Source: Lacihabitans soyangensis
GTDB taxonomy: Bacteria > Bacteroidota > Bacteroidia > Cytophagales > Spirosomataceae
Assembly: GCF_024343775.1 (NCBI RefSeq)
Contig: NZ_RJUF01000007.1
Span: forward strand, 1 to 64,000
Direction: 5' to 3'
Length of the DNA stretch: 64,000 bases
Shown here piece by piece: positions 47,189 to 62,444 of the stretch (position 1 is the first letter of the stretch; the number at the start of each line of letters is the position of its first letter). The notes under the pieces are model-generated. The model was not told where the DNA came from, searched no databases, and saw only the letters and a list, made by a program, of their open reading frames with translations. The position numbers and the translations under genes are program-made.

Positions 47189-48099
47189 AGTTTTTGTTTT
47201 TTCATCCAATTGTTAATTACTCCAAAAAAAGCCTCGGGCTGTTCAATCCAAATAAAATGTCCCGCGTTTTTGATTACCGATAGTTGAGAATTTTTAATTG
47301 CTTTTTGGATACGATTTGCATGCGAAACCTGATCACATATAAAGTCATCATCGCCTACGATAACCAAAGTAGGAACCGTAATTTTTGGCAACAAGTCCAG
47401 AATTTGCTCCGAGCCTAAGCCTCCTTTTGAGGTCATATCCCATGCTTTTTGACTGAGTTGAACGTTTTCTACTGCCATGAATTTGGGTAAATTGGCTTGG
47501 TCATGAAAATAGAAAGGCATAATATAGCCCATCTCCTCTTGAAGAGATCTTTTCATAGTATCTTGACCCAAAAGCATCTTAGACCCAGGAGCATAATAAG
47601 GTTCTGAACTACGTTTTTGAATAGCCTTAACATATTCATCCTGTGCTAGTTGATCCATACCTGCAAAAGCGGCAATGGCTATGATTCCTTTGAGATTTTT
47701 ATTGTATTTAATTCCATAATTAAGCACTTGCCAACCGCCCATGGAGTGCCCAGCTATCCACACTTTATCTTGTTTTAGGTGAATTCTGAGTTGCTCGATG
47801 TCCTCAATAAAATCATCGGTTTGGTAATCTTCGGGCTTGTCCGATCCTTCAGAAAGACCAGAAGCTCGGGTATCCAACCACACAACTGTAAAGGTTTTCT
47901 CAAGCTCTGGCATCGAATTTTTGTAGGCATCAAGATTGGGTCCCCAACCCGGTGTAGGAAATATGCAAAGAGGACCATTGCCAGATACCACATAATGCAA
48001 TTTTAGCCCATTGATTTTTGCAAAATGCTCACCTTTTGAAAGTGGATTTTGGGCGAGAGACTGAAGGCAAATTATGAATAGGAATAATGTTTTTTTCAT
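47185..48099 (-). CDS. Alpha/beta hydrolase, secreted
   Basis: 304 aa. Signal peptide about 1-16 (ends SLAQ). Catalytic triad: S in IAGHSMGGWQ (about 118), D in VGDDDFICD and H in NAGHFIWIE. The oxyanion region is CIFPTPGWGPN. The fold is like proline-iminopeptidase or haloalkane-dehalogenase relatives, but substrate cannot be inferred. It lies between two secreted proteins sharing an N-terminal module and overlaps the downstream one by four bases. Confidence 0.85.
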   Translation of the reverse strand: MKKTLFLFIICLQSLAQNPLSKGEHFAKINGLKLHYVVSGNGPLCIFPTPGWGPNLDAYKNSMPELEKTFTVVWLDTRASGLSEGSDKPEDYQTDDFIEDIEQLRIHLKQDKVWIAGHSMGGWQVLNYGIKYNKNLKGIIAIAAFAGMDQLAQDEYVKAIQKRSSEPYYAPGSKMLLGQDTMKRSLQEEMGYIMPFYFHDQANLPKFMAVENVQLSQKAWDMTSKGGLGSEQILDLLPKITVPTLVIVGDDDFICDQVSHANRIQKAIKNSQLSVIKNAGHFIWIEQPEAFFGVINNWMKKQKL

Positions 48100-48111
48100 G
48101 GTTATAAGATA

Positions 48112-48963
48112 TTAATAATGAAGAATTACAGCTCCGGAAGCACCAACATTAAAATTTACGTATGAACAGCCAGCACCACCACCCGGAAATTTACCCGTAA
48201 TTTCAAATAAGTTCCCTAAGCTTGATCCAATAAAACTACCAGAATTAACATCGAACTCCATGGTTATAGAATTCCCACCATTAGCAAAAGTTGGATATGT
48301 ACCTCCTCCTGCTCCAGTCTTAACTATTTTTCTATAAACTCCTGCATTGGCTTGCTGAAAACTGAACTCTGCAGATTTTCCATTTTGGCCAGAAACTATC
48401 ATGATAAGATTTACATCATAATTAGGGGTTTGGTCCCCACCCACTGAACTGCCAGCATTTCTGGCTGATACCAAGGTTGTATTTCCTCTTGTTAATGAAT
48501 TAGAAAACTCATCGAATACTAGGTTAAGAGTTTCAACAGGGTTTACGCTTACCATTGCCTGAACATATTGTCCACCTCCTCCTCCTGAACAACGAACATC
48601 TGCTCCTATGGACGACAAAATTTGCCCATTGCCTCCATCGCCCCAAATCTCAACTAAAATTTTTGTTATACCTGCTGGAACTACAAAAGTTGTGTTTTGT
48701 GAATAAAGTTTATGATTAGTATACATGGATGATTGGCTTGCAGTCAAACCTGAAATGTAATTCCATTGGTTACCGTCATGCACCGCAAGTTTCTTTTCAT
48801 CCGCATTAAAAACCACATTGCCAGCTTGTTGGGGTGGCAGTGTGCTTTGTTGTGAAGTGGAAAGTCGTGGCAGGATCAAGCTTGTAGGGCTTAATTCGGA
48901 GGCAACTTGTGCCTGAGAAAATATAGAAATAAAGAGTAGAACTAGGACTACATATTTTTGCAT
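48112..48963 (-). CDS. Secreted glycine-rich protein with shared tail-fibre-type N-terminus
   Basis: 283 aa. Signal peptide about 1-18 (ends SQAQ). Next comes the module LSPTSLILPRLSTSQQSTL and VVFNADEKKLAVHDGNQW, parallel to residues about 25-75 of the 45998 protein. The C-terminal half is glycine-rich (CSGGGGGQY, GAGGGTYPTFANGG, FPGGGAGC), a beta-rich sequence resembling receptor-binding or adhesin surfaces. Function unknown. First gene of a three-gene run with the hydrolase and the repeat protein. Confidence 0.7.
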   Translation of the reverse strand: MQKYVVLVLLFISIFSQAQVASELSPTSLILPRLSTSQQSTLPPQQAGNVVFNADEKKLAVHDGNQWNYISGLTASQSSMYTNHKLYSQNTTFVVPAGITKILVEIWGDGGNGQILSSIGADVRCSGGGGGQYVQAMVSVNPVETLNLVFDEFSNSLTRGNTTLVSARNAGSSVGGDQTPNYDVNLIMIVSGQNGKSAEFSFQQANAGVYRKIVKTGAGGGTYPTFANGGNSITMEFDVNSGSFIGSSLGNLFEITGKFPGGGAGCSYVNFNVGASGAVILHY

Positions 48964-49094
48964 TGATTTGTATCATTTACAGATACAAAATTGAGGAAGA
49001 AGAGCATATTCATCAATAACATAAAAAGGTAAAAAAGTAGAGGTTTTGGGTCATAAAATAAAAAACAAGAAGAAACAATAACCCTTTTTGTGGA

Positions 49095-49213
49095 ATGTGA
49101 TATTTGTAAACGGCACTCTCCAAGCGTTAACGATAGGAGCGGCATCCTTTTTGGCCTGGCGAAGACGGACAAAAAGATATAGCGGATAGCGTGTCCCGAT
49201 AGCTATCGGGACG
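49095..49213. repeat. Composite intergenic hairpin with a 20-bp perfect palindrome
   Basis: Located downstream of the NarL-type regulator. At 49193-49212 lies the palindrome GTCCCGATAGCTATCGGGAC. Left of it is an imperfect stem-loop around ATCCTTTTTGGCC and GGACAAAAAGATAT, bracketed by GAGCGGC and AGCGGATAGC. I know both parts as widely dispersed intergenic elements in Bacteroidota. It may terminate the regulator transcript. Confidence 0.6.
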
Positions 49214-49215
49214 CC

Positions 49216-49839
49216 CTAAATTATTCCTTCTTTGATAGCTTTGGCAACTGCTTCTGGTCCGCTCTGAACATGGAGTTTTTGGTAGGAGTTTTTGATGTGC
49301 CTCCTAACAGTCTCTACCGATATATCCAATTCAATAGAAATCATACGATAAGAGAAGCCTTTGGCCACGAGGTTGAGCACCTCTATCTCTCTGGCTGTGA
49401 GACTGTAAGTGTCTTTGGGCGATTGTTTGCGGAAAGATTGCAGGACTTTGGTGGCTATAAATGGTGACATAGGAGCACCACCAGCCAGAACTTCCCTAAT
49501 GGCCTCAATGAGGCGTGTGGGTGAGTCTTTTTTGAGAATATAGCCGTCTGCACCTTTGCTCAGGCTTTCGAAGAGGTGTTCGTCTTCATCAAAAACAGTA
49601 TGCATGATAATTTTAACCTCTGGAAACTTACTTTTGATCTCAAAAACGGCTTCGGTACCCAGTTTTTGGGGCATGTCTATGTCCATAATGATGACATCAG
49701 GCCTATTCAACTGAGTATTCTGCAATGCCTCTAAGCAATCACCGTATGACGACAAGAGTTGCATGCCCTCGGTAGCTTCTATTAGCATGCAAAGTAGCTG
49801 ACTCAGGCGTTCGTTGTCCTCATATATTGAAATTTTCAT
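49216..49839 (-). CDS. NarL/FixJ-family response regulator
   Basis: 207 aa. Receiver domain about 1-120 with phospho-acceptor Asp in VIIMDIDMPQKLG (about 53) and conserved K in LKKDSP. C-terminal LuxR-type helix-turn-helix: LTAREIEVLNLVAKGFSYRMI, then SVETVRRHIKNSYQKL. It is 143 bp downstream of the sensor kinase gene on the same strand and is its probable partner. Confidence 0.93.
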   Translation of the reverse strand: MKISIYEDNERLSQLLCMLIEATEGMQLLSSYGDCLEALQNTQLNRPDVIIMDIDMPQKLGTEAVFEIKSKFPEVKIIMHTVFDEDEHLFESLSKGADGYILKKDSPTRLIEAIREVLAGGAPMSPFIATKVLQSFRKQSPKDTYSLTAREIEVLNLVAKGFSYRMISIELDISVETVRRHIKNSYQKLHVQSGPEAVAKAIKEGII

Positions 49840-49858
49840 AATCTTATTTATTTACCTC

Positions 49859-49880
49859 TAAGTCGCAAAAACGCTAGGAA
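49859..49880. repeat. CTAAGTCGCAAAAACGCTAGG remnant
   Basis: A degenerate copy of the CTAAGACGC(A/C)AAGACGC motif seen at 19112, in the gap between kinase and regulator genes. Confidence 0.3.
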
Positions 49881-49982
49881 ACAATCTTTCTCTGTGTTTA
49901 TAAAACCTACACCTGATTTTTTTATTAGTATTCTATATTTTTTTTACAAAATTGAACTTAAAATTTTATTCAAAAAATAACC

Positions 49983-52883
49983 TTATTTGAGCGGAAATTT
50001 TATAACAACCTGAGTTCCTTTCCCTATTTCTGAGTGAATAAGCAAGTGCCCGTTCAGGTCGACAGTACGTTTTTTTAGATTTTTGAGTCCATTTCTATTG
50101 GATTCTTTGGCTTTATCAAATCCACAACCGTTATCCTCAAAAACCAAGGAGAGGAAATTACCAGATAAGGAACATTTTAAACTGATTTTGGTTGATTGAC
50201 TATGCTTGAGGGCATTGTTAATCAACTCCTTAAGCATGAGGTATAAGTTACGTTTGTTTTCCAAAGACATATTTTTGCCACTCAAATCATTAGACTCAAA
50301 TTCGTATTGAATGTTTTGAGCCTCTATTAATTCGGACGCTTCTTTGTTGATTTTGGTAAAAAGGCTCTCTAAAGAATCATACTTTGGGTTGATATTCCAA
50401 ATGATGTAGTCAATGGCAGTACCTGCTTTTTTAGCTTCCTCAGCTATCATTTGTGCAAATCCATTGTTTTTTGGGTCTTGGGTGAGATTTTGTTTTAGCA
50501 GTCCTCCCAAAATGCCAATGCTACTGAGTGATGCCCCTATTTCGTCGTGTAAATCTGCCGAAATGCGATTACGAAGACTATAAACTTTCTGAATTTGATT
50601 GAGTCTGAACTTATAAAATGCATAAAACAAGGCAAAAATAATGGCAGAAAGTAGAATTCTGAACCAAAGTGTTTCGTACCAAGCGGGTAGAATTTCAAAA
50701 TTCACGATTTTGCTCTCTGAAACCCAAGGACCTGAGATTTTAGAGTATTGTATGTTCAATGTATATTTTCCTTTATTGAGATTTGGGAAAACAAAAGTCG
50801 GGTTGTTACCATTTTCAATCCAATTATCGGATACACCACTGAGTTTATATCGATATTTTGTTTTTTGAGGAGCTGCGAAATTGAGTGGAGAAAAGGAAAA
50901 ACTAAGACTGTTGTCGGCTTTCTGGAATTTAAAACTGGACTTTGGCGAAACAAAAGTTGGCCTACCCAAAACCGTTACTTTACTTAAAACCAGTTCGTTG
51001 TGAACAATACCTTCATTTAAAAGATCAAAATCAACGACGGATAAGCCATTTTTATGTCCCAAAAGTAAAAGGTGTTCATCGATATAAAAACCATTTGAAA
51101 CATCGTTGGAAACCAGGCCGTCAAATCGTGTGTAACGCGTGACTTTCCTCTTAGCGTCCATTAGAGCAAGGCCTTCTTTTGTACCGATCCAATAATCTCC
51201 TGCTTTACCACCGGCGATATTGAAATACTGATAGTCTGCCACAGACTCTTGGTATTGCTCTGAACCGAATTTTCCGATAATTTTACCACGGCTATTGACC
51301 TCGTTGAATCCTCCATAAGCCGAAAAAAGCAAATTTCCTGACTTTGAAAGTCCAATATTGAGGTAATAATCGCTGACAAATTCATTATGCTTATTGTTAT
51401 CACTTAATTCAACGAAAGCATTGGTTTTCATATCATAAACCGCCATTCCGAAGCCTTTGGGAATCCAACCTGCAATCCAGATTTTGTTTTGGTAATAATA
51501 AACTTTCTTGAAAAGGTTTTCCTCAAAAAATGACGGGTAAGGCAACCTATTCCATGGTTTTACCTCCATATTTTTTTGGATATCCAACACCTGAAATGGC
51601 TTATTGGGACTTACCAACCATAAACGATTAAGACTATCAAGGGTCAAACTTGTAAACTGCCCACCAAGTAATTTAACCACTTTCAAGCTTGGTAACACCT
51701 TAAATAAACCCTGCTCGGCAGCCAAGAATATTTGATTGTCATTAACAAGAATTTCGTTGATTCTCCCAGAATTCTGAATATCAATTTTGTCAAACGTACC
51801 TAAACTCCGATTCCATTTCAGCATTTCTCCAGTGCTTAGCCCCAAGACGTATGCATTTGTCGAGACTTTGGCTATGGATGAAACAATGGCCTTGTCAGAA
51901 ACCAATTTTTTAGGCAAATCTATAGACTGAATTACCTGTTTTTCAAAGGATTGTTTAAATATACCTTCATCCGTTCCAAGCCATATTTCTTGATTTTGGT
52001 TGACCAGAATAGCATGATAATGGAGATTTTGAGTTTCTAATTCTTCAAAATGCTGAATTGATTTGCTCTGCCTATCAAAAGCTACTAATTGTGACGGGGT
52101 AAGAATTAAAAATTGCGAACCTCTAACCGAAATGGAAATTATTGATTCATTAACTCTTAAGGTTTTCATCAATAAATGTCTATTAGGCGAATAATTAAAT
52201 AGCTGTCCTTGAGCATCTCCAAGTAAAAACTGAGCAGATTTTGTGTCGAAATAAATAGAGGTAAAGTCTTGTTTGGAAGAAACCCTAATCCATTTATTGC
52301 TGCTGTAATTATATTTGCAAAACCCCATGGGACTAATGGACCATAGATTACCATTTTGGTCAAGAGAAAAAACTCCAATCCTAGGATTTTGCTGATTTTG
52401 ATCTAGCACTTTGAATATTTTCAGTTTCTTCTCTGAAGGAATGTAAGTTTTAAGATGATGAAAATCTGTGGACCAAACCCATCCTTTTTTGTCAATAAAC
52501 AAACCATCAAAATGATCATTGTCCGGATTAGCGTCCTTCAGGTTTGAACTTATAACCACTTGGGTGCTTCCATTCGATGTATTAATTTTTAAAAGACCCG
52601 CATTGTTACTAAACCAAATATTATCCCCAGCGTCAATGTCCATGGCATCTGGCTTTGAATTAGGGCCAAACTTTTCGAATCGATAACCATCATACTTACT
52701 GATACCGAGATTAGAATGCACCCACAAAAAACCTTGGGCATCCCTTTTTAAGTCAAAAATAGCATCGGAAGCCAAGCCATCTTTTGTGCTGATGTTTTCA
52801 AAAAATCTCTCCTGAGAATAAGCACCAAAACACGTTAAAAACAGTAAAAAATAAGAATAGAAAGTATTTTTCAAACGAATCAA
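49983..52883 (-). CDS. Two-component sensor kinase with beta-propeller sensor and HisKA_3 domain
   Basis: 966 aa. Signal peptide about 1-23. A long periplasmic region of WD-like Reg_prop repeats (about 25-620; e.g. DGLASDAIFDLKRDAQGFLWVHSN, shown here in shortened form by D-G-L-A-S-D-A-I and G-F-L-W-V) forms two seven-bladed propellers, followed by a Y_Y_Y domain (about 650-730), one transmembrane helix (about 735-755), a HisKA_3 segment with phospho-His in ISADLHDEIGASLSSIG and an ATPase domain with LKELINNALKHS and DNGCGFD. No receiver or AraC output is fused, so it is a classical kinase acting on the NarL protein. Ligand unknown. Confidence 0.92.
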   Translation of the reverse strand: MIRLKNTFYSYFLLFLTCFGAYSQERFFENISTKDGLASDAIFDLKRDAQGFLWVHSNLGISKYDGYRFEKFGPNSKPDAMDIDAGDNIWFSNNAGLLKINTSNGSTQVVISSNLKDANPDNDHFDGLFIDKKGWVWSTDFHHLKTYIPSEKKLKIFKVLDQNQQNPRIGVFSLDQNGNLWSISPMGFCKYNYSSNKWIRVSSKQDFTSIYFDTKSAQFLLGDAQGQLFNYSPNRHLLMKTLRVNESIISISVRGSQFLILTPSQLVAFDRQSKSIQHFEELETQNLHYHAILVNQNQEIWLGTDEGIFKQSFEKQVIQSIDLPKKLVSDKAIVSSIAKVSTNAYVLGLSTGEMLKWNRSLGTFDKIDIQNSGRINEILVNDNQIFLAAEQGLFKVLPSLKVVKLLGGQFTSLTLDSLNRLWLVSPNKPFQVLDIQKNMEVKPWNRLPYPSFFEENLFKKVYYYQNKIWIAGWIPKGFGMAVYDMKTNAFVELSDNNKHNEFVSDYYLNIGLSKSGNLLFSAYGGFNEVNSRGKIIGKFGSEQYQESVADYQYFNIAGGKAGDYWIGTKEGLALMDAKRKVTRYTRFDGLVSNDVSNGFYIDEHLLLLGHKNGLSVVDFDLLNEGIVHNELVLSKVTVLGRPTFVSPKSSFKFQKADNSLSFSFSPLNFAAPQKTKYRYKLSGVSDNWIENGNNPTFVFPNLNKGKYTLNIQYSKISGPWVSESKIVNFEILPAWYETLWFRILLSAIIFALFYAFYKFRLNQIQKVYSLRNRISADLHDEIGASLSSIGILGGLLKQNLTQDPKNNGFAQMIAEEAKKAGTAIDYIIWNINPKYDSLESLFTKINKEASELIEAQNIQYEFESNDLSGKNMSLENKRNLYLMLKELINNALKHSQSTKISLKCSLSGNFLSLVFEDNGCGFDKAKESNRNGLKNLKKRTVDLNGHLLIHSEIGKGTQVVIKFPLK

Positions 52884-53055
52884 AAGTTTTACAAATCAGT
52901 ATGTAAACATAGAAAATTTATATTCTGGATTTGCTAAAAATCAAAAAAATACAATTTTATTTTAGAAGCTTTTTAAATTAGATAATTTATTTAGTAATAG
53001 GCAACATTGGGTTTTAAGAATACGTATAAGAGATTAGAAACAGATTAAAACCTAT

Positions 53056-53658
53056 ATGACGAGATACGAATTTCTAAAATCAGCCGGCTTCTCCGGTGCC
53101 TCTTTAATGGCTTTACTATCATGTGTAAAAACAGATGACAGTTATGTAGAAGCGTTGGTTCAAAACCCTGATGGGACTACTGGAACAACATCAGGTACGG
53201 GCACAACTTCAGGGACAACATCGGGAACTGGAACCACTTCAGGAACGACTTCTGGCACTACAACCGGAACAAACACCAACACCGGAACCACAACAGTGGC
53301 CGCCACAAATGCCGACAAGACCTTGTTTATAAGCACCGACGCCTTGAGCAAAATAACAGCAAAGCTAAAAATAGACCTCACCTCGGCCACCTATTCCAAA
53401 CTAAAAACTTTAGGTGGATATGTGGTAGTGAGCAGTGCCTATGTAGTTGCTCTCTCAAAAACAGGTAAATTTATTGCTGCCACAGTGACATGTTCGCATG
53501 AACCGAAGAAAAGAATAATTTACTCAAACGAAGAATGGTATTGTACCGACCACGGTGCTAGATTTACTTTGGCCGGCAAAGGACTCAACTCAAACGCCAG
53601 CAAAGGACTCACAATTTACAACACTGCCACAGATGGCAACACACTCATAATTTATTAA
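53056..53658 (+). CDS. Rieske-type [2Fe-2S] lipoprotein with Thr/Gly-rich linker
   Basis: 200 aa. N-terminus MTRYEFLKSAGFSGASLMAL with lipobox LLSC (20-23) looks like a lipoprotein signal, related to Tat-type Rieske signals but with one arginine. Residues 41-80 are a Thr-Ser-Gly repeat linker built of TSGT units. The Rieske domain follows: ligands C146-x-H148 and C163-x2-H166, 14 residues apart; the two extra disulfide cysteines of bc1-type proteins are missing. It should carry electrons at the outer face of the inner membrane or in the outer membrane. First of five tightly packed genes. Confidence 0.82.
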   Translation: MTRYEFLKSAGFSGASLMALLSCVKTDDSYVEALVQNPDGTTGTTSGTGTTSGTTSGTGTTSGTTSGTTTGTNTNTGTTTVAATNADKTLFISTDALSKITAKLKIDLTSATYSKLKTLGGYVVVSSAYVVALSKTGKFIAATVTCSHEPKKRIIYSNEEWYCTDHGARFTLAGKGLNSNASKGLTIYNTATDGNTLIIY

Positions 53659-53660
53659 AA

Positions 53661-54092
53661 ATGAAAATATTAGCTTTAAAACTTCTGGTTCTGTCCTTTT
53701 TCAACGGAATCGTTTGGGGAGAAAATCTTGAAACAGCACAAGCCGACGCCAAGCAAAATCACAAATTGGTTTTGCTCTATTTTTCGGGTTCTGATTGGTG
53801 TGGACCATGTATAAAACTGAAGCAGGAAGTACTCGAAACATCTGAATTTCAAGATTTCGCAAAAGAGCATCTGAATTTGGTCAGGGCTGATTTTCCGAGA
53901 ATGAAAAAAAATCAGCTGTCGAAAGAACAGACTGCATATAACGAGAAACTGGCCGAAAAATATAATCCAAAAGGTAAATTTCCATTGACGGTCTTGATAA
54001 ACCCCGATGGCAAGGTAATCACTGAATGGGATGGCTACCCCAAAGACCTCAGCACCCAATCTATTAAAAAACAAATACTTACGCACTTTTGA
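53661..54092 (+). CDS. Thioredoxin-fold protein, exported
   Basis: 143 aa. A signal peptide covers about 1-20; the thioredoxin fold has the redox motif W46-CGPC (C47, C50) and cis-proline segment KFPLTVLINPDG. It begins 2 bp after the Rieske gene and its stop overlaps the ApbE start. Probably reduces or oxidises cysteines in its envelope neighbours; candidates include the CxC of the DUF4266 protein. No strong similarity to a named thioredoxin (TlpA, DsbE) can be claimed. Confidence 0.88.
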   Translation: MKILALKLLVLSFFNGIVWGENLETAQADAKQNHKLVLLYFSGSDWCGPCIKLKQEVLETSEFQDFAKEHLNLVRADFPRMKKNQLSKEQTAYNEKLAEKYNPKGKFPLTVLINPDGKVITEWDGYPKDLSTQSIKKQILTHF

Positions 54093-55018
54093 ATCAAAAG
54101 CTCTTTTCTAGAACACTCAGGCTAATGGGTAATAGATTCGTGATAACCGTCACAGCTGAAAACAGCGACGAAGGTGAACCACTCATCGATGAGGCTGTGG
54201 GTGAAATACAAAGAATCGAAAGTTTACTTACCACTTTTTCAGAAAACAGCCAGACCAATCAAATCAATAAAAACGTTGGTATAAAGGCGGTTAAAGTAGA
54301 GCTGGAAGTATTTGAATTGATAGAACGAGCTCAAAGGATTTCGGAACTGACGGATGGGGCTTTTGATTTGAGTTATGGCTCTTTGGATAAAAAGTTTTGG
54401 AATTTTGACAAATTGATGACCGAACTTCCCGACCCAGAGACGGCTAAAGCGAAAGTCAGACTGATTAATTTTAAAAATATAGTTTTAGATAAATCTATTT
54501 GTAGCGTTTTCTTGAAAGAAAAAGGAATGCGAATAGGATTTGGAGGAATAGGAAAAGGATATGCAGCTGATAGAGCGGCGAATTTACTAAAAAGCAAAGG
54601 CGTAAAAAGCGGAATCGTAAATGCTAGCGGCGACCTCATAACCTGGGGAAATCAACCGAATGGTGAACCGTGGACCATCTCTTTGGCCCATCCAGACCTT
54701 CCCACAAAAGCTTTCTCGAAACTGAATATCAGCAATTTGGCTGTGGCCACATCAGGAAACTACGAAAAATTCGTGGTCATTGATGGCAAAAAATATTCCC
54801 ATACCATCAACCCTAAAACTGGCTATCCTGTATCTGGCATCAAGAGCGTTAGTATCATTTGCCCCATAGCCGAGCTTGCAGATGCACTGGCTACTCCGGT
54901 AACAATCATGGGCGTAGAAGCTGGTATAAACCTAATTAATCAGTTAAACAGCGTAGAATGCGTGATAATAGACGACAACAACTATGTATATAAATCAAAT
55001 AATGTTAAAATCGACTAA
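54089..55018 (+). CDS. apbE: ApbE-type FAD:protein FMN transferase
   Basis: 309 aa. The start is a TTG (overlapping the thioredoxin stop as TTGA); the first ATG, 12 codons later, would begin within the conserved LMGNRFVITV strand. Family motifs: MGxRF-type N-terminus, RIGFGGIGKGYAADRAANLL, IVNASGDLITWG, ATSGNYEKF and YSHTINPKTGYPV. ApbE attaches FMN to Thr/Ser of target proteins outside the membrane. No signal peptide is obvious, though the domain acts in the periplasm in other bacteria. No classical D-x2-SGAT target motif was found in the operon. Confidence 0.9.
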   Translation: MNQKLFSRTLRLMGNRFVITVTAENSDEGEPLIDEAVGEIQRIESLLTTFSENSQTNQINKNVGIKAVKVELEVFELIERAQRISELTDGAFDLSYGSLDKKFWNFDKLMTELPDPETAKAKVRLINFKNIVLDKSICSVFLKEKGMRIGFGGIGKGYAADRAANLLKSKGVKSGIVNASGDLITWGNQPNGEPWTISLAHPDLPTKAFSKLNISNLAVATSGNYEKFVVIDGKKYSHTINPKTGYPVSGIKSVSIICPIAELADALATPVTIMGVEAGINLINQLNSVECVIIDDNNYVYKSNNVKID

Positions 55019-55019
55019 G

Positions 55020-55229
55020 ATGCGAAAAATACTTTCAGTCCTAAGTTTGGGCTTATTAATGGGTTCATGCGTGAGTGTAAAAGAGTACCAAAAAAGCAGG
55101 ATAAACGACTCCGAGATGGAATTGGCCAACAGAAAAGTGGAGAAATTTGAGACCAATTTTTATCTCTATCGCGAAGGTGCCGCAGGTGCCAACGGTGGTA
55201 AAAGCGGGGGTGGATGTGGGTGTAATTAA
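55020..55229 (+). CDS. DUF4266 mini-lipoprotein ending GGGCGCN
   Basis: 69 aa from the ATG giving MRKILSVLSLGLL. Lipobox MGSC (14-17), then VSVKEYQKSRINDSEM, the FYLYREGAAGANGGKSGG segment and a C-terminal GGGCGCN. The family always has the glycine-rich Cys-x-Cys end. It begins 1 bp after ApbE. The two cysteines may bind metal or flavin, or be oxidised by the thioredoxin. Function unknown. Confidence 0.88.
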   Translation: MRKILSVLSLGLLMGSCVSVKEYQKSRINDSEMELANRKVEKFETNFYLYREGAAGANGGKSGGGCGCN

Positions 55230-55275
55230 AAATCGCCGGTCCTTTTATAACCACTATCAAAACATTATTAATTCG

Positions 55276-56508
55276 ATGAAGAAAGTAATCATAAGCATAG
55301 GCATATATTGTAGTGCATTCTTAAGTGTAAATGCACAAAACAAAACCTCAGAGCTTAAACTTGCCGAGGCAAAAAAAGAAAAAACTGGTCTAAAAAGTTT
55401 GAAGATTGACGAGGTAAATCTGGTAAGCTCTTACTACTCGCAAACCGGCAATAATTCTGCCATAACAGGTGGAATCGGTACCGAAAAACTTTGGGATGCG
55501 GCCAATTCTTTAGATCTCAAGTTGTCATTTATTGACAAAAAACAAAGAACCAATTCCGTGGTTTTGGATGCAGCAATGGACTACTATTCTTCTGCATCTT
55601 CTGATATGATCGATTCCCGTTCCTTGTCATCTGCATCTATGACTGACCTCCACTTTTACCCTTCAGTCTCTTGGAGCAGAAAAGATGAGACCAAACACAG
55701 CAACTTTGGAATAAGTGCAGCATATTCTACCGAATGGGACTATGAGTCTTTTGGTGGAAACATCAGTTACAGTAAAAGTTCTAAAGACAACAATACGGAG
55801 TTGAGTCTAAAAGCAGGAGCTTTTTTTGATAAATGGATGGCTATTCTTCCCTATGAGCTTCGACCCACCAGTTATCCTTCAGGTGCTGAAGGAGACCAAG
55901 GAGGCATCGCCTTCAAAAACAGAAATTCCTACAATGCCTCGATTGGCGTCTCAAGAGTAGTTTCGAAAAGATTGCAAATGATGCTTACCGTAGAGCCAGC
56001 CTTTCAGGAAGGTTTGTTGAGCACACCTTTCCATAGAGTCTACTTTACTGACAATACCCTAAAAGTAGAAAAATTACCAGGCCAAAGGGCAAAATTACCA
56101 ATGAGCGTTAGAGCCAACTATTTCATGGGCGACAGGCTGATTTTCAGGACTTTCTACCGCTACTACGTGGACTCTTGGGGAATGATAGCCCACACGGTGA
56201 GTGCCGAGACTTCGTATAAAATAAACTCATTTTTGTCTATCACGCCACATTATAGGTTTAATAGCCAAACTGCTGTGAAGTATTTTGCGGCCTACAAAAA
56301 GCACGCATTGACTGAACAATATTACACGAGTGACTATGATATTTCGGATTTCAATAGTGCATTTTGGGGTGCTGGACTAAGAATTGCACCTCCTGGAGGA
56401 ATTTTGGGCAACCGATGGTGGAATTCGCTCGAGGTTCGTTATGGACACTACAACCGAACAAACGGTATGGTTTCGCATATCATATCCTTGAGTACGAAGA
56501 TTAAGTAG
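55276..56508 (+). CDS. DUF3570 outer-membrane barrel-like protein
   Basis: 410 aa from the ATG giving MKKVIISIGIYCSAFL (signal, ends SVNAQ); the longer reading overlaps the DUF4266 gene and has no signal. The family pattern is visible: EVNLVSSYYSQTGNNSAITGGIGTEKL near the N-terminus (about residues 38-64), alternating strands, and the end MVSHIISLSTKIK. It is predicted to form an outer-membrane beta barrel. It follows DUF4266 by 46 bp and closes the operon. DUF3570 and DUF4266 genes occur together in other Bacteroidota and Proteobacteria. Confidence 0.88.
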   Translation: MKKVIISIGIYCSAFLSVNAQNKTSELKLAEAKKEKTGLKSLKIDEVNLVSSYYSQTGNNSAITGGIGTEKLWDAANSLDLKLSFIDKKQRTNSVVLDAAMDYYSSASSDMIDSRSLSSASMTDLHFYPSVSWSRKDETKHSNFGISAAYSTEWDYESFGGNISYSKSSKDNNTELSLKAGAFFDKWMAILPYELRPTSYPSGAEGDQGGIAFKNRNSYNASIGVSRVVSKRLQMMLTVEPAFQEGLLSTPFHRVYFTDNTLKVEKLPGQRAKLPMSVRANYFMGDRLIFRTFYRYYVDSWGMIAHTVSAETSYKINSFLSITPHYRFNSQTAVKYFAAYKKHALTEQYYTSDYDISDFNSAFWGAGLRIAPPGGILGNRWWNSLEVRYGHYNRTNGMVSHIISLSTKIK

Positions 56509-56511
56509 TTT

Positions 56512-56720
56512 GGTTATTGGTTGATTGGTGACTAGTTGATTGGTGACTGGTAACTGGTTCTTGGTCCACTGGCAAAAGTGCTATGCAGAAGTGGTTTGTT
56601 GGTTACTAGTTGACTGGTTATTCGTTCACTGACTACAGAACTAAGCCAAATTGAGTTGTTGGTTTATTGGTTACTTGTTGACTGGTTATTGGTTCACTGG
56701 CTACACAGAGCGAAACCGTA
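56512..56720. repeat. Degenerate TTGGTTACTGGT-type repeats, left half
   Basis: Three imperfect units of about 70 bases contain TTGACTGGTTATTSGTTCACTG, each followed by a short unique segment (e.g. gcaaaagtgctatgc, actacagaactaagcc, gctacacagagcgaaacc). The TTGGT/ACTGGT vocabulary is that of the 9811 array. The 67-aa frame at 56651-56854 is derived from it and is not taken as a gene. Confidence 0.7.
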
Positions 56721-56859
56721 ATGGATTACTGAATGATTGGTTTTCTGACACTGAAAGGTTCCGAGGCCTATTTATGGGAGAGCGATTGATAGTTGACCTT
56801 AAAACTGAATTGTTTTACAATCTGGCGTTTATTTCAGGTCCAACTATAGTCTGAACTCA

Positions 56860-57033
56860 CATCACTAATTCACCAATAACCAGTATACCAATAAACTAAC
56901 AAACTACCCCCTGACCGCACTTCACTAATCCACCAGTTCACCAGTATATCAATAAACTAACAAACTACCCCCTGACCGCACTTCACTAATCCACCAATTC
57001 ACCAGTAACTAGTAACTAACCCACTAATAACCA
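56860..57033. repeat. Two tandem 61-bp repeats plus flanks, right half
   Basis: Copies at 56879-56939 and 56940-57000 differ at three or four positions and start accagtatac/accagtatat; the flanks hold partial copies. They have the complementary vocabulary (ACCAGTAACCAAT) to the left half, so the region is a long, imperfect inverted arrangement between convergent genes. Central 56725-56850 shows no gene. Confidence 0.85.
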
Positions 57034-57038
57034 AACAC

Positions 57039-57782
57039 CTATCCCCCAATCTGCCGCTTGTCAATCATTTCTCTAAAGGCTTTTTTGTAGGTATCCGAAA
57101 TGGGAATGGTAGATTTATTAATAACGAGTCTGTCTTTTTCTATTTCTTCAATGGCCGCAATCGCAATTATAAAACTATTGTGGACCCTCACAAATCGCTC
57201 ACTTGGTAATGAAGCCTCCAGTGATTTCATGGTCTGAAGCGAAATTATTTTTTTTTGAGGGGTGTAAATACAAACATAGTCCTTAAGCCCTTCGATATAC
57301 AGAATGTCCGAGAGGTTAATTTTTATAAGTTTAGTACCGTCTTTTACAAAAATATAATCCTGATTTGCTACAGACTGCACTTCTTGAATAACGGTGGTAA
57401 CAGGCTGAGAAACATTAGTTCCATCTAGCCGAGCAATACCTTTTTCCACGGCTTTCAGAAACCGCTCAAAACTAATTGGTTTCAGCAAATAGTCATACAC
57501 TTCGAGTTCGTAACCCTCCAATGCATATTCTGAATAGGCCGTGGTGAGTATAATTAGGGGTTTGGTTTTGAGCAATTTTAGAAGTGTAATTCCGGTAACC
57601 TCGGGCATCTGAATATCCGAAAACAGAACATCAACAGGATTTTCTCTGAGGTATTCTAGTGCATCGAGAGCATTCGAAAAAGACTGTTTCAGCTCTAGCC
57701 TTGGCACTTTGGAGATGTAGGCCGACAAAAGATTGCGTGCAAGTGGCTCATCCTCAACTACAATACAACTATATGGGGTCAT
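57039..57782 (-). CDS. LytTR-family response regulator
   Basis: 247 aa. Receiver domain about 5-120 with phospho-Asp in DVLFSDIQMPEVTG and K in LLKPISF; C-terminal LytTR DNA-binding domain about 140-240 (FVKDGTKLIKINLSDILYIEG, VRVHNSFIIAI). LytTR proteins bind pairs of direct repeats in promoters. 2 bp after the histidine kinase gene; partners. Confidence 0.93.
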   Translation of the reverse strand: MTPYSCIVVEDEPLARNLLSAYISKVPRLELKQSFSNALDALEYLRENPVDVLFSDIQMPEVTGITLLKLLKTKPLIILTTAYSEYALEGYELEVYDYLLKPISFERFLKAVEKGIARLDGTNVSQPVTTVIQEVQSVANQDYIFVKDGTKLIKINLSDILYIEGLKDYVCIYTPQKKIISLQTMKSLEASLPSERFVRVHNSFIIAIAAIEEIEKDRLVINKSTIPISDTYKKAFREMIDKRQIGG

Positions 57783-57784
57783 TT

Positions 57785-58828
57785 CTAAAAGTCTATTTTC
57801 AACGAAACTTCATAGGTTTGGTCGGTTTCTGCTTGCTCCATTACGTATTTGTTCGGGTAGCTCAATTCCAACCTTCGTTTCACATTTTGGAGGCCAATTC
57901 CCGACTTTTCCAAAATAGAATCTTTAGGCAATTTACTGTTTTTGACGATATAAACAATACTTTTTGGGAGTATTTCCACCGAAAGCTCCACATAAGAACC
58001 TTTGAAATTGTTGCTTACTCCATGCTTAAAAGCATTCTCAAGAAAAGTTATGAGAATCAAAGGCACTATCTGAACGCCTTTAGGATTACCGATCACCTCA
58101 AAACTAACCGGCACCTGATTGTCAAGTCGAAGTTTCTCCAAACTTATATAGTTCTCCATGTAAGCCAGTTCCTTCTCTAACGAAACCAAAGGATGGTTAG
58201 ACTCATAAAGCATGTAACGCATCATTTGAGAGAGTTTTTCTATAACTTCCGTAGTATTTGGTGAGTTTACGGTGGCCAAGTAATACAGGTTATTCAAGGT
58301 ATTAAACAGAAAATGAGGATTAATCTGGGCTTTCAAAAACCTTAATTCGGATACAAGTTTTTCATTTTCAATCTCTTTCTTCTTCGACTCAAGAGCAAAC
58401 CAATCCTCCACAAACTTGAGCATACCCACAAAAATGCTTATAAAAAGTGTAACTGCTGCGTGTTGAAATATAAACTTCCCCGAATTCATAAAGCCCTTTC
58501 CTTGCTCTATAAACTCCGAGTACAAGAACCTTTTGAAGGAAATATGCAAAAAAACGATAATCACGAATGGAACAAAGAACTCTAACAAATACCTCCCAAC
58601 ATTTTTATGTTTCAGAAATCTCGGCAACCAAATGAAGTAATTCAGGTAACTGACAGCACCCATAAAAAGTACATGCGTTAAAGCATCGACGAGTGCTCGG
58701 CCAATGTTTATATCATCTCTATGTCTGAAAAATGTGATCTGATAGAAGAAAAAAGAGAAATACAAGCACCAAAATGACAGGTGCATGATGAGTACTCTTT
58801 TGTTTGAAAATATGGTTTTTGTTTGCAT
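57785..58828 (-). CDS. LytS/YehU-type sensor histidine kinase
   Basis: 347 aa. Four N-terminal helices (about 15-140) of the 5TM-like/DUF-type sensor followed by a His_kinase domain (PF06580) with phosphoacceptor in KAQINPHFLFNTLNNLYYL and an HATPase with ENAFKHGV and GIGLQNVKRRLEL. No periplasmic sensor domain is present, so it probably senses membrane state or a signal inside the membrane. Divergent from the barrel receptor gene at 59105. Confidence 0.93.
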   Translation of the reverse strand: MQTKTIFSNKRVLIMHLSFWCLYFSFFFYQITFFRHRDDINIGRALVDALTHVLFMGAVSYLNYFIWLPRFLKHKNVGRYLLEFFVPFVIIVFLHISFKRFLYSEFIEQGKGFMNSGKFIFQHAAVTLFISIFVGMLKFVEDWFALESKKKEIENEKLVSELRFLKAQINPHFLFNTLNNLYYLATVNSPNTTEVIEKLSQMMRYMLYESNHPLVSLEKELAYMENYISLEKLRLDNQVPVSFEVIGNPKGVQIVPLILITFLENAFKHGVSNNFKGSYVELSVEILPKSIVYIVKNSKLPKDSILEKSGIGLQNVKRRLELSYPNKYVMEQAETDQTYEVSLKIDF

Positions 58829-59011
58829 TATCTAGGTTAATAACATTCAATATTACGGTGATTTTTAAGATATTACCTTACCAATGTTACGATTTTATAT
58901 ATCTCAACCAAAATCATCTATAAATTGGCGTATTGGCTCGAAGAATGGCATAAACGCTCTAAAAGTGTTAAAAAGTCGTAAAACTTACCGTATTGTCGAA
59001 TTATTAACCCC

Positions 59012-59039
59012 TTTGGTCTATTCCACACAATTTGGTCTA
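59012..59039 (+). promoter_or_regulatory. Direct repeat TTTGGTCTA x2 upstream of the barrel gene
   Basis: Two exact copies of TTTGGTCTA lie at 59012-59020 and 59031-59039, offset 19 bp. They are followed by TTATTTTG (59051-59058), one mismatch from TAnnTTTG. Direct repeats of this kind fit binding by a LytTR dimer, and the divergent LytTR gene is the obvious candidate. Confidence 0.4.
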
Positions 59040-59104
59040 AACTTCTACATTTATTTTGTGTCATTATTCCACCGAAAGACATAAATCATTTAAAAAATAA
59101 CAAA

Positions 59105-61642
59105 ATGAAAAAGATTTTATTAACAGTACTAATCGGCCTCGGATTCAATGCAGCATTTGCACAATGGGGCCCTCCGGGTGGCGGAGGTGGAATGGGTCGC
59201 CCAGGTGGCGGTAGCGAAAACGGTAGACCAGGTGCCAACACACAAAAACCTGCTACCTTAGATTTGGAAGCGAACGTACCAAAAGGAAATTCAAAAATTT
59301 CTGGTAATGTAGTAGACGACGCTGTAACCACAGCCGTAGAATTTGCCAACATAGCCTTGATAAACATCGAAACTAAAAAGCCGGTAGACGGAACTATGGC
59401 AGATGAAAAAGGTTTTTTCTCTATGAAAAAAGTAGCAGCTGGAACATACAATATTCAAGTTTCTTTCATTGGTTTTGACACAAAAATCATAGAAAAAGTA
59501 GTCGTAGAAAAAGGCAAAGACGTTGAATTGGGCGTGATTAAACTAAAACAAAGCACCAAACAACTTGACGAACTCGTGGTAAGTGGACAAGCCGCCATGA
59601 TTGAAGAAAAAGTGGACAGATTGGTTTACAATGCCGAAAAAGACCTATCTGCCAAAGGCGGTGATGCCTCTGATATTCTTAAAAACGTGCCGATGTTAAG
59701 TGTGGACTTAGAAGGAAACGTTTCTTTAAGAGGAAGTGAAAATATTAGAGTTTTGATTAACAATAAACCTTCAACTATTGTAGCCAGCAGCATAGCAGAT
59801 GCGTTGAAAATGATTCCTGCTGACATCATCAAAAGCGTAGAAGTAATAACTTCACCATCAGCAAAATACGATGCCGAAGGATCTGCGGGTATAATCAATA
59901 TCATCACCAAAAAATCATCATTACAAGGCCTTAACCTTAACATTGACTCAGGTGTGGGTTTGAGGGGATCTAACCTTGGTCTGAACGGTAACTTCCGCAA
60001 AGGCAAACTAGGTATAACTCTAGGCGGTTTTGGTAGAGCTTTTTACAATAAATCAGCTGGCGAAACTAGCCAATTATTGAAAAGCACCGGAGTAAGTACA
60101 GAACAAAATCAAGATGGAAATCATTTCGGAATGTTTGGAAGGTATAATATCGGTTTGGACTATGAACTGGCAAAAAATCAATCACTTTCGGGAACCTTGG
60201 CCTTCGGTATCCGTAGCTTCGACAGAGATCAGGTGCTTAATTCTTCAAGCTTCTTAAATGGCTCACTATTGAATTCTTCTATCAGAGACATCTCTTCTAT
60301 AGATAGATCGAACTCTATGGACGCCAACATTGACTATATCAGAACTTTCAAGCCGGGTCAAGAATGGTCCGTTTCAACACAGTTTAGTCAAAACAAGTTG
60401 GTAAATAACTTTGACTCTGATCTCTTGAGTATTTCAAACGAAATATTGAGCAGACAAAAAAATATAAACGATAACCTCAATACTGAAATCACTTTGCAGT
60501 CAGACTATGTAAGTCCGATTGGTAAAAAACAGCAGATAGAATTCGGTGCAAAGGGAGTTTTTAGAACAGTAGAAAGTGATTTTGAGTATCTTTTGGCCAA
60601 CCCGACTGGAAACTTCAGCAGCGATGCAAGAAATCCCTCAGGATATCTCAACTATTCGCAAAATGTTATGGCTGCCTACGCCTCTTATTTGTTCACAACC
60701 AAAAAGAAATTCAACTTTAAGGTAGGAGCGAGATACGAATACACCGAAATCACAGCAGATGACTCAAGAGGTGCAATAGAGATCCCAGCCTACTCTAATT
60801 TGGTACCAAGTTTTAACGTTTCCAAATCAATAAAAGCTACAACTTACAAACTCGGATATAACCGAAGAATACAAAGACCTGGATTACAACAACTTAATCC
60901 GAACGTAAACTTGGTAAACCCACTAAGCATAAGTTACGGAAATTCTAGCCTAAATCCAGAATTGACCGATAACGTAGAGTTTAGCATAAGCAAAAGTATC
61001 AAAAAATCATATTTGACTGTCTCGCTTTTCGCTCGCCAATCTAACAATTCTATCACTAGAGTTAGCTTCGCATCAGACTCCATCCCGGGTGCTATTGTAA
61101 CCACTTTTGAAAACATCGGAAAAGAACAAACATTGGGCACTAACGTATTTGGTAACGTAATTTTATCATCCAACTGGACACTAAATGGAGGCGTAGATAT
61201 GTACTACAGATATTTAGAAGGTTTTCAAACAGGCCTAACAGGATTATCAGAGAAGGTTAGCAACGATGGTATAATTTTAAGTGGTAGATTAATGTCTAAC
61301 CTGAAACTTAAGAAAGGCTGGGCTATGCAAGCTGGTGGTGGCATGAGAGGCAATAATATAAACCTTCAAGGTAGACAAGGCGGTATGGGCATGTATTCTT
61401 TGGGTGTTAGAAAGGACTTCGGCAAAAAAGCCAGCCTTGGCTTAGCAGCAGAGAACTTCTTTGGAGGTATGATAATGAGAAACTCAACAGATACACCTGT
61501 GATTTTCCAAAAATCGGTGAATTACATGTACAATTCGAACATAAAAGCTACGTTTAGCTATAAAATCGGAAATATGAGATTTGTTGCCGACAAGAAAAAA
61601 GTAAAAAATGATGATGTAAAAAGTGGTGGTGAGGAGAACTAA
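59105..61642 (+). CDS. Outer-membrane beta-barrel receptor with CarboxypepD_reg domain (OMP_b-brl_3)
   Basis: 845 aa. Signal peptide about 1-19 (ends AFAQ), then a Gly/Pro-rich stretch (WGPPGGGGGMGRPGGGSENG), a carboxypeptidase-regulatory-like domain (about 58-145) and a TonB-type plug with EEKVDRLVYNAEKD, SLRGSENIRVLIN and SAKYDAEGSAGIINIITKK. The barrel ends in a long hydrophilic tail (DKKKVKNDDVKSGGEEN). A family often controlled by a neighbouring LytSR. Substrate unknown. A strong terminator follows. Confidence 0.92.
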   Translation: MKKILLTVLIGLGFNAAFAQWGPPGGGGGMGRPGGGSENGRPGANTQKPATLDLEANVPKGNSKISGNVVDDAVTTAVEFANIALINIETKKPVDGTMADEKGFFSMKKVAAGTYNIQVSFIGFDTKIIEKVVVEKGKDVELGVIKLKQSTKQLDELVVSGQAAMIEEKVDRLVYNAEKDLSAKGGDASDILKNVPMLSVDLEGNVSLRGSENIRVLINNKPSTIVASSIADALKMIPADIIKSVEVITSPSAKYDAEGSAGIINIITKKSSLQGLNLNIDSGVGLRGSNLGLNGNFRKGKLGITLGGFGRAFYNKSAGETSQLLKSTGVSTEQNQDGNHFGMFGRYNIGLDYELAKNQSLSGTLAFGIRSFDRDQVLNSSSFLNGSLLNSSIRDISSIDRSNSMDANIDYIRTFKPGQEWSVSTQFSQNKLVNNFDSDLLSISNEILSRQKNINDNLNTEITLQSDYVSPIGKKQQIEFGAKGVFRTVESDFEYLLANPTGNFSSDARNPSGYLNYSQNVMAAYASYLFTTKKKFNFKVGARYEYTEITADDSRGAIEIPAYSNLVPSFNVSKSIKATTYKLGYNRRIQRPGLQQLNPNVNLVNPLSISYGNSSLNPELTDNVEFSISKSIKKSYLTVSLFARQSNNSITRVSFASDSIPGAIVTTFENIGKEQTLGTNVFGNVILSSNWTLNGGVDMYYRYLEGFQTGLTGLSEKVSNDGIILSGRLMSNLKLKKGWAMQAGGGMRGNNINLQGRQGGMGMYSLGVRKDFGKKASLGLAAENFFGGMIMRNSTDTPVIFQKSVNYMYNSNIKATFSYKIGNMRFVADKKKVKNDDVKSGGEEN

Positions 61643-61645
61643 TAA

Positions 61646-61690
61646 TGAAGAGTAGTCAATTTTTAGTTGAAACATTGACTACTCTTTTGA
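61646..61690 (+). terminator. Rho-independent terminator after the barrel gene
   Basis: A perfect 13-bp stem (AAGAGTAGTCAAT 61648-61660 with ATTGACTACTCTT 61674-61686), 13-base loop, short T-run. Confidence 0.85.
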
Positions 61691-61776
61691 AAAACATTAG
61701 TTTAGCAACCATTTCAAATAAAAATCGTAATCGTATTTAAACAATTATAATTTCTAATCTAAAATTTATTTCTAAA

Positions 61777-62340
61777 ATGAAAAAAATCAGTCTTTTGGCA
61801 ATCGCACTTTTTACAACAATTGCCGTTTCAGCCCAAAAATGGACCCTAGACAAAGCACACTCAAAATTGACTTTCACTGTGACTCACCTTTTGATGTCAG
61901 AGGTTGACGGTGTTTTCAAATCTTTCGACGCTAGCATTACTTCTTCAAAAGAAGATTTCTCTGATGCTACATTTGAGCTAACAGCAGACATGACCAAAGT
62001 AACTACCAACAACGACATGCGTGATGGTCACTTACAAAAAGAAGATATTTTTGACACTGCTAAGCACCCAACAATGACTTTCAAAAGCACTGGTATTAAA
62101 AGTGCTGGTGGCAATAAATACACATTAATGGGCAATTTGACCATGAAAGGTGTTACTAAGCCAGTTACATTGAATTTGACTAAATTAGGAACAGGTACTA
62201 ACCGTCAAGGAAAGAAATTGGTAGGTTTTAAAGTTACTGGAACTATCAAAAGAACTGACTTTGGTGTAGGTGCTATGCCTGCAGCTGTAGTTGCTGAAGA
62301 CGTTGAACTTACAGCAAGTGGTGAGTTTGCTTTAAACTGA
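61777..62340 (+). CDS. YceI-family periplasmic lipid-binding protein
   Basis: 187 aa. Signal peptide about 1-19 (ends SAQ). The lipocalin-like YceI fold shows KWTLDKAHSKLTFTVTH, DMRDGHLQKEDIFDTAKHPTM, and KRTDFGVGAMP near the end. The family binds polyisoprenoids and is induced by stress in some bacteria. Monocistronic, with its own terminator. Confidence 0.93.
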   Translation: MKKISLLAIALFTTIAVSAQKWTLDKAHSKLTFTVTHLLMSEVDGVFKSFDASITSSKEDFSDATFELTADMTKVTTNNDMRDGHLQKEDIFDTAKHPTMTFKSTGIKSAGGNKYTLMGNLTMKGVTKPVTLNLTKLGTGTNRQGKKLVGFKVTGTIKRTDFGVGAMPAAVVAEDVELTASGEFALN

Positions 62341-62369
62341 GTAAGGGGTAAAAGTAGAATAGTTGATGG

Positions 62370-62403
62370 GCAGTCTCTCTAATGGGGAGGCTGCTTTTTT
62401 ATT
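62370..62403 (+). terminator. Rho-independent terminator after yceI-like gene
   Basis: An 11-bp stem (GCAGTCTCTCT/GGGGAGGCTGC type, two G-T wobbles) with a short loop is followed by TTTTTT. Confidence 0.8.
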
Positions 62404-62416
62404 ATAACACTTGTTG

Positions 62417-62444
62417 TTTGCTAGGTATAAGCTATTTATTTTTG
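62417..62444 (+). promoter_or_regulatory. Candidate promoter of the SWIM gene
   Basis: TATTTTTG (62437-62444) matches TAnnTTTG exactly; TTTG (62417-62420) lies 16 bp upstream, shorter than usual. A transcript from here would have a very short leader before the ATG at 62459. Confidence 0.35.

Follow-up and report, generated by a model that had tools for sequence, protein, structure and literature searches.

A Rieske lipoprotein gene joined to the DUF3570/DUF4266 flavinylation gene set in Lacihabitans soyangensis and its family

Gene clusters that combine the FAD:protein FMN transferase ApbE, a DUF3570 protein, a thioredoxin-like protein of family PF13899 and the small protein DUF4266, with or without DsbD, were described by Meheust et al. 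in 2021 as 'DsbD systems', 316 such clusters being without DsbD (PMC8238504). The same paper noted the CXC of DUF4266, reported that a Chlorobium DUF3570 protein is flavinylated by ApbE at two sites, and proposed a DsbD-fed hybrid of thioredoxin and flavin. The word 'Rieske' is absent from its main text; its supplement may still hold an entry. It was the only paper treating DUF4266 or DUF3570 in our literature search, which also returned no paper on a Rieske protein in this system: PMC11237620, listed for both ApbE and Rieske, has nitrous oxide respiration as its subject, and the excerpts of PMC11334425 and PMC11885536 contain nothing on this operon. Here we describe a five-gene operon of Lacihabitans soyangensis (Spirosomataceae, Cytophagales) at positions 53056-56508 of the window, the 64,000-nucleotide stretch at positions 1 to 64,000 of contig NZ_RJUF01000007.1 (assembly GCF_024343775.1). 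In this operon the four described families, hereafter the core, are led by a gene for a Rieske-like lipoprotein.

As far as the main text of PMC8238504 describes these systems, the operon has in common with them the four families, the C-terminal CxC of DUF4266, two DUF3570 flavin sites (here predicted) and a DsbD in the genome; it differs in the leading Rieske lipoprotein gene, an ApbE without a signal peptide, flavin sites of SSAS type and a DsbD gene outside the cluster. The original prediction had called the whole system undescribed, which stands for the Rieske gene and not for the four core genes. What is new is the form led by a Rieske gene, which stays together across one family and has an ApbE without a signal.

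The Rieske gene and its association with the core

The five genes are all on the forward strand. They code for a Rieske-like lipoprotein (53056-53658; lipobox Cys23 at 53122-53124, then a Thr/Gly/Ser-rich linker and the domain at about residues 90-200), a secreted thioredoxin-like protein nearest to DsbH (53661-54092; CGPC at 53799-53810), ApbE (54089-55018; TTG start, assigned by Pfam and motifs), a small DUF4266 lipoprotein (55020-55229; C-terminal G-G-G-C-G-C-N, with the CxC codons at 55215-55223) and a DUF3570 protein, a predicted outer-membrane beta barrel and flavin acceptor (55276-56508; Pfam and model). The open reading frames confirmed the coordinates and the intergenic spacing of 2, -4, 1 and 46 bp given in the original prediction; longer alternative starts exist for DUF4266 (ATG at 54984) and DUF3570 (TTG at 55147). 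The Pfam matches of Thioredoxin_7 (8.6e-12), ApbE (6.7e-80), DUF4266 (5.3e-20) and DUF3570 (PF12094; 1.6e-29, 103.4 bits versus a cut-off of 25) were all above the cut-offs. The predicted envelope signals on every protein except ApbE were found again by eye in four proteins, as a lipobox in Rieske (LLS-C) and DUF4266 (MGS-C) and as a signal peptide in the thioredoxin and DUF3570, and the ApbE frame leaves no room for one. Scans gave 8 promoter-like sequences (9.6 expected by chance), 1 terminator-like sequence (3.5 expected) and 5 matches to a Bacteroidota-type promoter pattern (6.1 expected), in no case above chance, and it is the spacing that suggests cotranscription of the five genes. Matches to thioredoxin, ApbE and DUF3570 stand together at 71 of 81 DUF4266 loci (80 fetched loci and the window), so that the arrangement is not due to chance. 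The expected conservation of gene order was borne out to this extent; in the family here called f17 the order differs from that of the window.

The distribution of the Rieske gene was followed in 241 sampled genomes from the order, of which 45 have DUF4266, and in the subset of 29 that belong to the host family, 15 DUF4266-positive and 14 negative. A Rieske protein above 200 bits with profile A1 was present in 15/15 positive family genomes (lowest score 214.8) and in 0/14 negative ones (best score 128.5 bits), the profile having been built largely from these operons so that high scores arise partly by construction. Other Rieske proteins were found in positive and negative family genomes alike. 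Since presence and absence of DUF4266 and of this Rieske protein both occur inside three genera (g2, g3 and g143), the Rieske gene and the core seem to have been gained or lost jointly more than once; the genomes are related by kinship, and a plain probability is unsuitable for this co-distribution.

Two sets of loci gave the gene position. In the DUF4266-seeded set of 80 fetched loci, which includes a reduced number of f17 loci and omits two f3 genomes present in the order sample, the Rieske gene adjoins the core at 20 loci (14/14 in the own family, 6/66 in others), and two more Rieske matches (L098, L101) are distant from the core and apparently unrelated. The Rieske-seeded set holds the best 80 of 189 relatives, a choice that favours near kin and gives no phylum-wide rate, and all four core genes were found at 64 of these 80 loci. 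At those 64, the Rieske gene lies before the thioredoxin gene in 58 cases, after DUF3570 in three (two Roseivirga and one Cytophagales contig) and in the thioredoxin-ApbE gap in two, and is split off by an inserted gene in one. On a tree of 88 Rieske domains, used for counting label changes only (101 columns, many open forks, labels given by locus), the core label needs six changes, at least four of them forced by well-supported branches; L202, labelled 'other', has a contig that ends at the Rieske gene and is probably a core locus. The closest named Rieske protein on the tree is that of Lacihabitans sp. CCS-44 (94% over 99 columns). Co-distribution and gene position thus support counting the Rieske gene among the regular members of the unit in the host family.

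Some loci depart from this pattern. The Rieske protein of an f3 operon (L063:5571-6011) has lost a cluster cysteine (VVSPNH in box II) and is perhaps a decaying copy. A Jiulongibacter metagenome-assembled genome (MAG) carries tandem Rieske genes before the thioredoxin gene (L166:2185-3158), the first one outside the main core group on the tree. Of the 16 Rieske-seeded loci without the full core, four lie elsewhere and 12 have a gene for a DUF5777-like barrel 3' of the Rieske gene (L203, L204, L211, L212, L214, L216, L218, L221, L222, L223, L225 and L226), a further combination of a Rieske lipoprotein and a membrane barrel; a YceI-like protein is present at 11 of these 12 (Pfam check on L203 only). 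The genome of the window itself encodes one more Rieske lipoprotein at L146:1225-2989, where the next genes are those for a membrane protein with weak likeness to b561 and for a YceI protein.

The score of the window Rieske protein in PF00355, 14.2 bits, is under the cut-off of 20.3. Six of eight operon relatives pass this cut-off (L108, L071, L135, L090, L063 and L133) and two miss it (L102 and L112); in alignment A3, 39 of the 46 members match PF00355 at E ≤0.01, the window protein being among the other seven. Despite the low score, the protein is identified as a Rieske protein, predicted to hold a [2Fe-2S] cluster, by its ligand boxes, its relatives and its modelled fold. Box I (C-S-H, 53491-53499, forward strand) provides C146 and H148, conserved in 46/46 rows of A3, and box II (C-T-D-H followed by G-A-R-F, 53542-53553, forward strand) holds C163, H166, A168 and F170, also in 46/46; the box II stretch was the search pattern for all rows except the window, and its invariance is there by design, which does not apply to box I. 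In 15 family proteins obtained independently of the pattern (the window protein and 14 fetched via DUF4266), box II is likewise kept, and GAR or GAQ is followed by Phe in 14 and by Tyr in one. The Rieske domain was modelled at pLDDT mostly above 90, and Foldseek matched the model to PetC3 (E 1.8e-4) and next to BphA3 (E 5.6e-4, TM 0.71 by target length), the latter being a Rieske ferredoxin bound to its reductase in the matched structure.

The low-potential Rieske ferredoxins BphA3 and CarAc (PDB 2yvj, 2de5) and PetC3 (PDB 5cxm) have the fold, as seen by Foldseek, and the ligands in common with the operon protein, which differs from them as a lipoprotein on a long linker, in an operon without an oxygenase or reductase gene. 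The disulfide cysteines of the high-potential bc1/b6f Rieske proteins are missing, with Cys at position 151 or 165 in 0/46 rows of A3, and the Ser/Tyr pair of the high-potential types is replaced by Ala168 and Phe170 in 46/46 rows. PetC3 also has Ala and Phe at these places and, unlike the operon Rieske, keeps the disulfide cysteines; BphA3 and CarAc are not known to have the Ser/Tyr pair. In yeast, loss of the Ser or the Tyr costs 130 and 65 mV, respectively, in a roughly additive manner, according to the relevant part of PMC12954380. With no disulfide cysteines and with Ala/Phe in place of Ser/Tyr, the potential of the operon Rieske is expected to be lowered, closer to that of flavins. The N-terminus reads R..FLK in most members, resembling a Tat signal in which one Arg has been exchanged. 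As TatC is encoded in the genome, this gives a hint, and no more, of Tat-type export.

A predicted flavin-bearing barrel and its ApbE

Two predicted FMN sites were found in DUF3570, both on the forward strand: site 1, D102-Y-Y-S-S-A-S108 (55579-55599), with Ser108 in 52/52 aligned rows and D102 in 48/52, and site 2, S-S-A-S121 (55627-55638), with Ser121 in 52/52 rows, reading SSAS in 42, SGAS in 9 and SGPS in 1. The published flavinylation motif, as given in the cited part of PMC12052999, is D-x-x-[S/T]-G-A-[S/T]. In a wider set of 81 rows, the last residue of site 1 is Ser or Thr in 79, and the two exceptions come from a single gene split into halves; the last residue of site 2 is Ser in 66, whereas the remaining 15 rows are gapped, misaligned or different there. 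A genome search for the acceptor families FMN_bind, DUF2271 and DUF3570, which left out NqrB-type proteins, returned one DUF3570 protein, no FMN_bind protein and no DUF2271 protein. Because both serine sites are kept and the search gave neither of the other two families, DUF3570 is the likely flavin acceptor of the operon; the original idea that ApbE flavinylates one of the members without a known function was therefore right in kind, and DUF3570 can now be named as the probable one. In a Spirosoma MAG, DUF3570 is split into two frames of 98 and 276 aa (L109:6532-7737 and L190), from a broken gene or an assembly error.

The AlphaFold model of DUF3570 (mean pLDDT 86.8, pTM 0.78) is a barrel of 16 strands by our grouping, in which strands 123-127 and 130-137 were joined, as were 233-239 and 242-246, and three short ones were dropped. 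The best structure match in a second look was a BamA model entry, with Z 21.7, rmsd 3.5 and 277 residues aligned N to N and C to C; a search by sequence for a solved DUF3570 structure gave six matches, which at E 0.16-0.7 we regard as chance. The loops that follow even strands are 3-5 residues long, with a single one of 11, and those after odd strands have 9, 17, 2, 24, 29, 4, 27 and 4 residues. As the short-turn side faces the periplasm by the usual rule, the loop of residues 106-122, which holds both serines, is probably on the outer side of the barrel or folded into its lumen. Conservation was 0.764 in the odd-side loops, 0.688 in the strands and 0.666 in the even turns, with loop 189-212 as the exception (0.649). 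Most outer-membrane proteins follow the reverse trend, and the conserved odd-side loops would fit an active site on that side.

The operon ApbE contains the motifs GGIGKGY, TSGNYEK, HTINPKTG and ADALAT and aligns to solved ApbE proteins. Its frame opens just 12 residues before the conserved MGNRF, so that by its sequence the protein cannot carry a signal peptide. A crude hydrophobicity rule, restricted to frames of 280-420 aa, sorted 140 ApbE rows into 52 with no signal possible, 49 extended but not hydrophobic and 39 signal-like; a few rows are fragments or mis-anchored, and some (L161, L173 and L210, for example) look inflated, their frames extending upstream of the likely start. By this rule a signal-like N-terminus occurs at 0/15 family loci versus 18/20 classified f3 loci. 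A periplasmic ApbE would hardly reach an outer-side loop after insertion of the barrel, so modification should precede insertion, and flavinylation may take place before export of DUF3570. A cytosolic ApbE is known in Klebsiella (cited part of PMC12052999). An ApbE-DUF2271 fusion is encoded beside the operon at L105:9448-10986 and L108:3352-4869 (Pfam check on L105 only), that is, a second flavinylation system close by.

Thiol carriers, lipoprotein signals and surroundings

The thioredoxin-like protein matched the DsbH model at 2.8e-26, below the cut-off of that model, and PDB 2ju5 at E 5.2e-20. The C-terminal CxC of DUF4266 was found in 146/146 rows (82/82 and 64/64, some genomes being in both sets), and the haem motif CxxCH occurs in none of the five proteins. 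The genome has a single DsbD_TM match, on another contig (C4) and outside the cluster, and DsbD_TM was present in 45/45 DUF4266-positive genomes of the order sample, two lists being compared by eye. A near-full-length DsbD is encoded in the operon at 6 of 11 f17 loci and, by the same search, at no other locus of the first set; several 600-aa neighbours taken for DsbD proved to be an acyltransferase, a sulfatase, a glycosidase and a polysaccharide epimerase. We rejected the idea that the Rieske protein replaces DsbD, since most loci hold neither and L208 holds both: in this Flectobacillus MAG (L208:6266-8470), a DsbD gene lies 108 bp beyond DUF3570, in a six-gene run with both Rieske and DsbD.

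Surface lipoproteins of Capnocytophaga have the optimum C-X-K-(D/E)2-X after the lipid Cys, according to the cited part of PMC5080379. The operon Rieske proteins mostly read C-[VI]-[KR]-E-[ED]-D, and in 61 core rows position +3 holds a basic residue in 75%, while acids stand at +5 in 82% and at +6 in 90%, a count in which six Rieske proteins are without a lipobox by rule and some out-of-family rows are set at the wrong Cys. The window Rieske reads C-V-K-T-D-D, with the acids one place later than the published optimum, and DUF4266 reads C-V-S-V-K-E-Y. The SusD lipoproteins of the genome, unlike the Rieske pattern, have Asp at +3 in 8/13; this set keeps the 13 of 20 with a lipobox by rule, several of the seven dropped have one by eye, and L232 looks misplaced. 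A place of the Rieske protein at the cell surface is possible on this pattern.

Downstream, a response regulator and a histidine kinase (both by eye) at 57039-58828 are convergent to the operon. The space between the convergent genes is filled by imperfect GGTTATTGGT-type repeats at 56503-57036, present also at 9799-9913, in direct and inverted orientation, with 11 matches in the window versus 0 expected. A gene of 246-247 aa lies 3' of the operon in 5 of the 7 Lacihabitans-like loci L148-L154, the L148 copy, the only one typed, being LytTR. Rfam matches in the window were a Flavo-1 sRNA at 49119-49200 and a DUF805b cis-regulatory RNA at 8445-8477.

Proposed electron path and its alternatives

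We propose that the operon codes for a Rieske-extended form of the DUF3570/DUF4266 flavinylation system, in which a thiol/flavin chain is linked to a one-electron partner by the Rieske protein, a proposal about as likely to be right as wrong. The apparently cytosolic ApbE would modify DUF3570 with FMN at two serines prior to export, and DUF3570 would then be inserted in the outer membrane as a barrel, with both flavins in one loop at the outer mouth or in the lumen. Reducing power would cross the inner membrane via the DsbD encoded elsewhere, pass to the secreted thioredoxin, from there to DUF4266, whose Gly-rich arm carries the C-terminal CxC, and then to the flavins of the barrel. The Rieske protein would exchange single electrons with these flavins and so join the thiol/flavin chain, which moves electrons in pairs, to a one-electron partner; the exchange is proposed by analogy with low-potential Rieske ferredoxins and flavoproteins. 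The strongest candidate for a final acceptor or donor is iron, and we infer, as did the original prediction, an electron flow from the periplasm toward the cell surface. While the DsbD-fed hybrid of thioredoxin and flavin was put forward in the main text of PMC8238504, the order of steps given here is our own.

Several observations weigh against this path. The absence of the Rieske protein from the 14 negative family genomes is unproven, at most 14 Rieske candidates having been scored per genome. Outside the family the Rieske gene stands beside the core in just six of the 66 DUF4266 loci, one of them (L063) ligand-deficient, so that the core works without it, and the same Rieske subfamily also pairs with DUF5777-like barrels at 12 of the 80 Rieske-seeded loci. 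The anammox Rieske protein Kustd1480, without the Tyr but with the Ser, is still of high potential (cited part of PMC12954380). Both flavin sites of the window DUF3570 have Ser for the Gly of the motif, site 1 reading [S/T]-S-A-S, and a Gly-to-Ala change in another substrate cut flavinylation to about half (cited part of PMC12052999); residues 108-121 of the flavin loop were modelled at pLDDT below 50. A second ApbE in the genome, at C179, has a signal-like N-terminus and could do the flavinylation. Finally, DsbD_TM occurs in 213 of the 241 genomes overall, so that DsbD in the positive genomes says little, and its presence was discarded as a marker of the system.

The direction of flow and the place of modification could also be otherwise. 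Electrons could run inward: the flavins or the Rieske protein would accept them from reductants outside the cell and pass them to the thiol relay or a respiratory chain; the sequence fixes no direction, and the main text of PMC8238504 notes that the flow could in principle be reversed. We regard inward flow as distinctly improbable, as the thioredoxin is nearest to DsbH, which NCBIfam names as a disulfide reductase, and DsbD stands within the operon at the f17 loci mentioned above. The second ApbE at C179, probably secreted, could instead modify DUF3570 in the periplasm, leaving the operon ApbE, without a signal peptide, to a cytosolic substrate, and most ApbE proteins are seemingly secreted (cited part of PMC12052999). 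We give this little credence: ApbE matches are present at 76 of 81 DUF4266 loci, the signal-like N-termini of f3 and their lack in the host family look as if either compartment suffices, and a DUF3570 protein was flavinylated in Escherichia coli on co-expression with its own ApbE, the cloning strategy resembling, according to the main text of PMC8238504, the one used there for signal-truncated constructs. Just as little credence goes to the Rieske gene as a passenger that shares the promoter and has no part in the flavin chain. The core without a Rieske gene at most other loci would suit a passenger; against it, Rieske and DUF4266 agree in 29/29 family genomes sampled, and the Rieske gene is joined to the core in three arrangements, with the forced label changes on the tree.

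A further reading, to which we assign a tentative place, clearly below that of the proposed chain, is an iron reductase or iron-handling device, whose flavins would have a part in iron uptake or in the reduction of Fe(III) outside the cell; it concerns what the chain is for more than how it works and is compatible with the Rieske-linked chain. A VIT1 transporter is present in 25 clusters according to the main text of PMC8238504. In our DUF4266 set, a VIT1 gene lies on the same strand and within 1 kb of the core at 10 of 80 loci from five families, namely L066, L071, L078 (where a haem-binding PF14376 protein is encoded between VIT1 and the core), L085, L086, L118, L132, L134, L137 and L140, and likewise at two of the 64 Rieske-seeded core loci (L184 and L186); 11 of these 12 were confirmed by Pfam and L085 by similarity only. 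At L071 and L184 it lies directly or nearly directly 5' of the Rieske gene. Against this reading, no VIT1 homologue was found at window positions 46001-64000 or in the seven loci L148-L154, and VIT1 may move iron or manganese, out of the cytosol.

In a stronger and, in our estimate, unlikely form of the proposed chain, the operon would be a haem-free outer-membrane wire, with the CxC of DUF4266 facing the periplasm, outer-loop flavins attached in the cytosol and a surface Rieske protein as the one-electron terminal. In porin-cytochrome conduits of the MtrCAB type, an outer-membrane barrel loaded with redox centres lies between carriers in the periplasm and carriers at the surface; the operon is not a member of this class and would work alike, but with flavin, thiols and an Fe-S cluster instead of haem. 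With Gram-positive flavinylated extracellular electron transfer, as outlined in the cited parts of PMC8238504 and PMC12052999, it has in common an ApbE-attached FMN carrier outside the cytosol, and it differs in the acceptor protein and in the Gram-negative outer membrane. The unit would let one test cytosolic flavin attachment on a protein bound for the outer membrane. It adds a one-electron carrier that is tied to the system throughout the sampled members of one family, and, for electron passage across the Gram-negative outer membrane without multihaem cytochromes, it names each part of one possible route.

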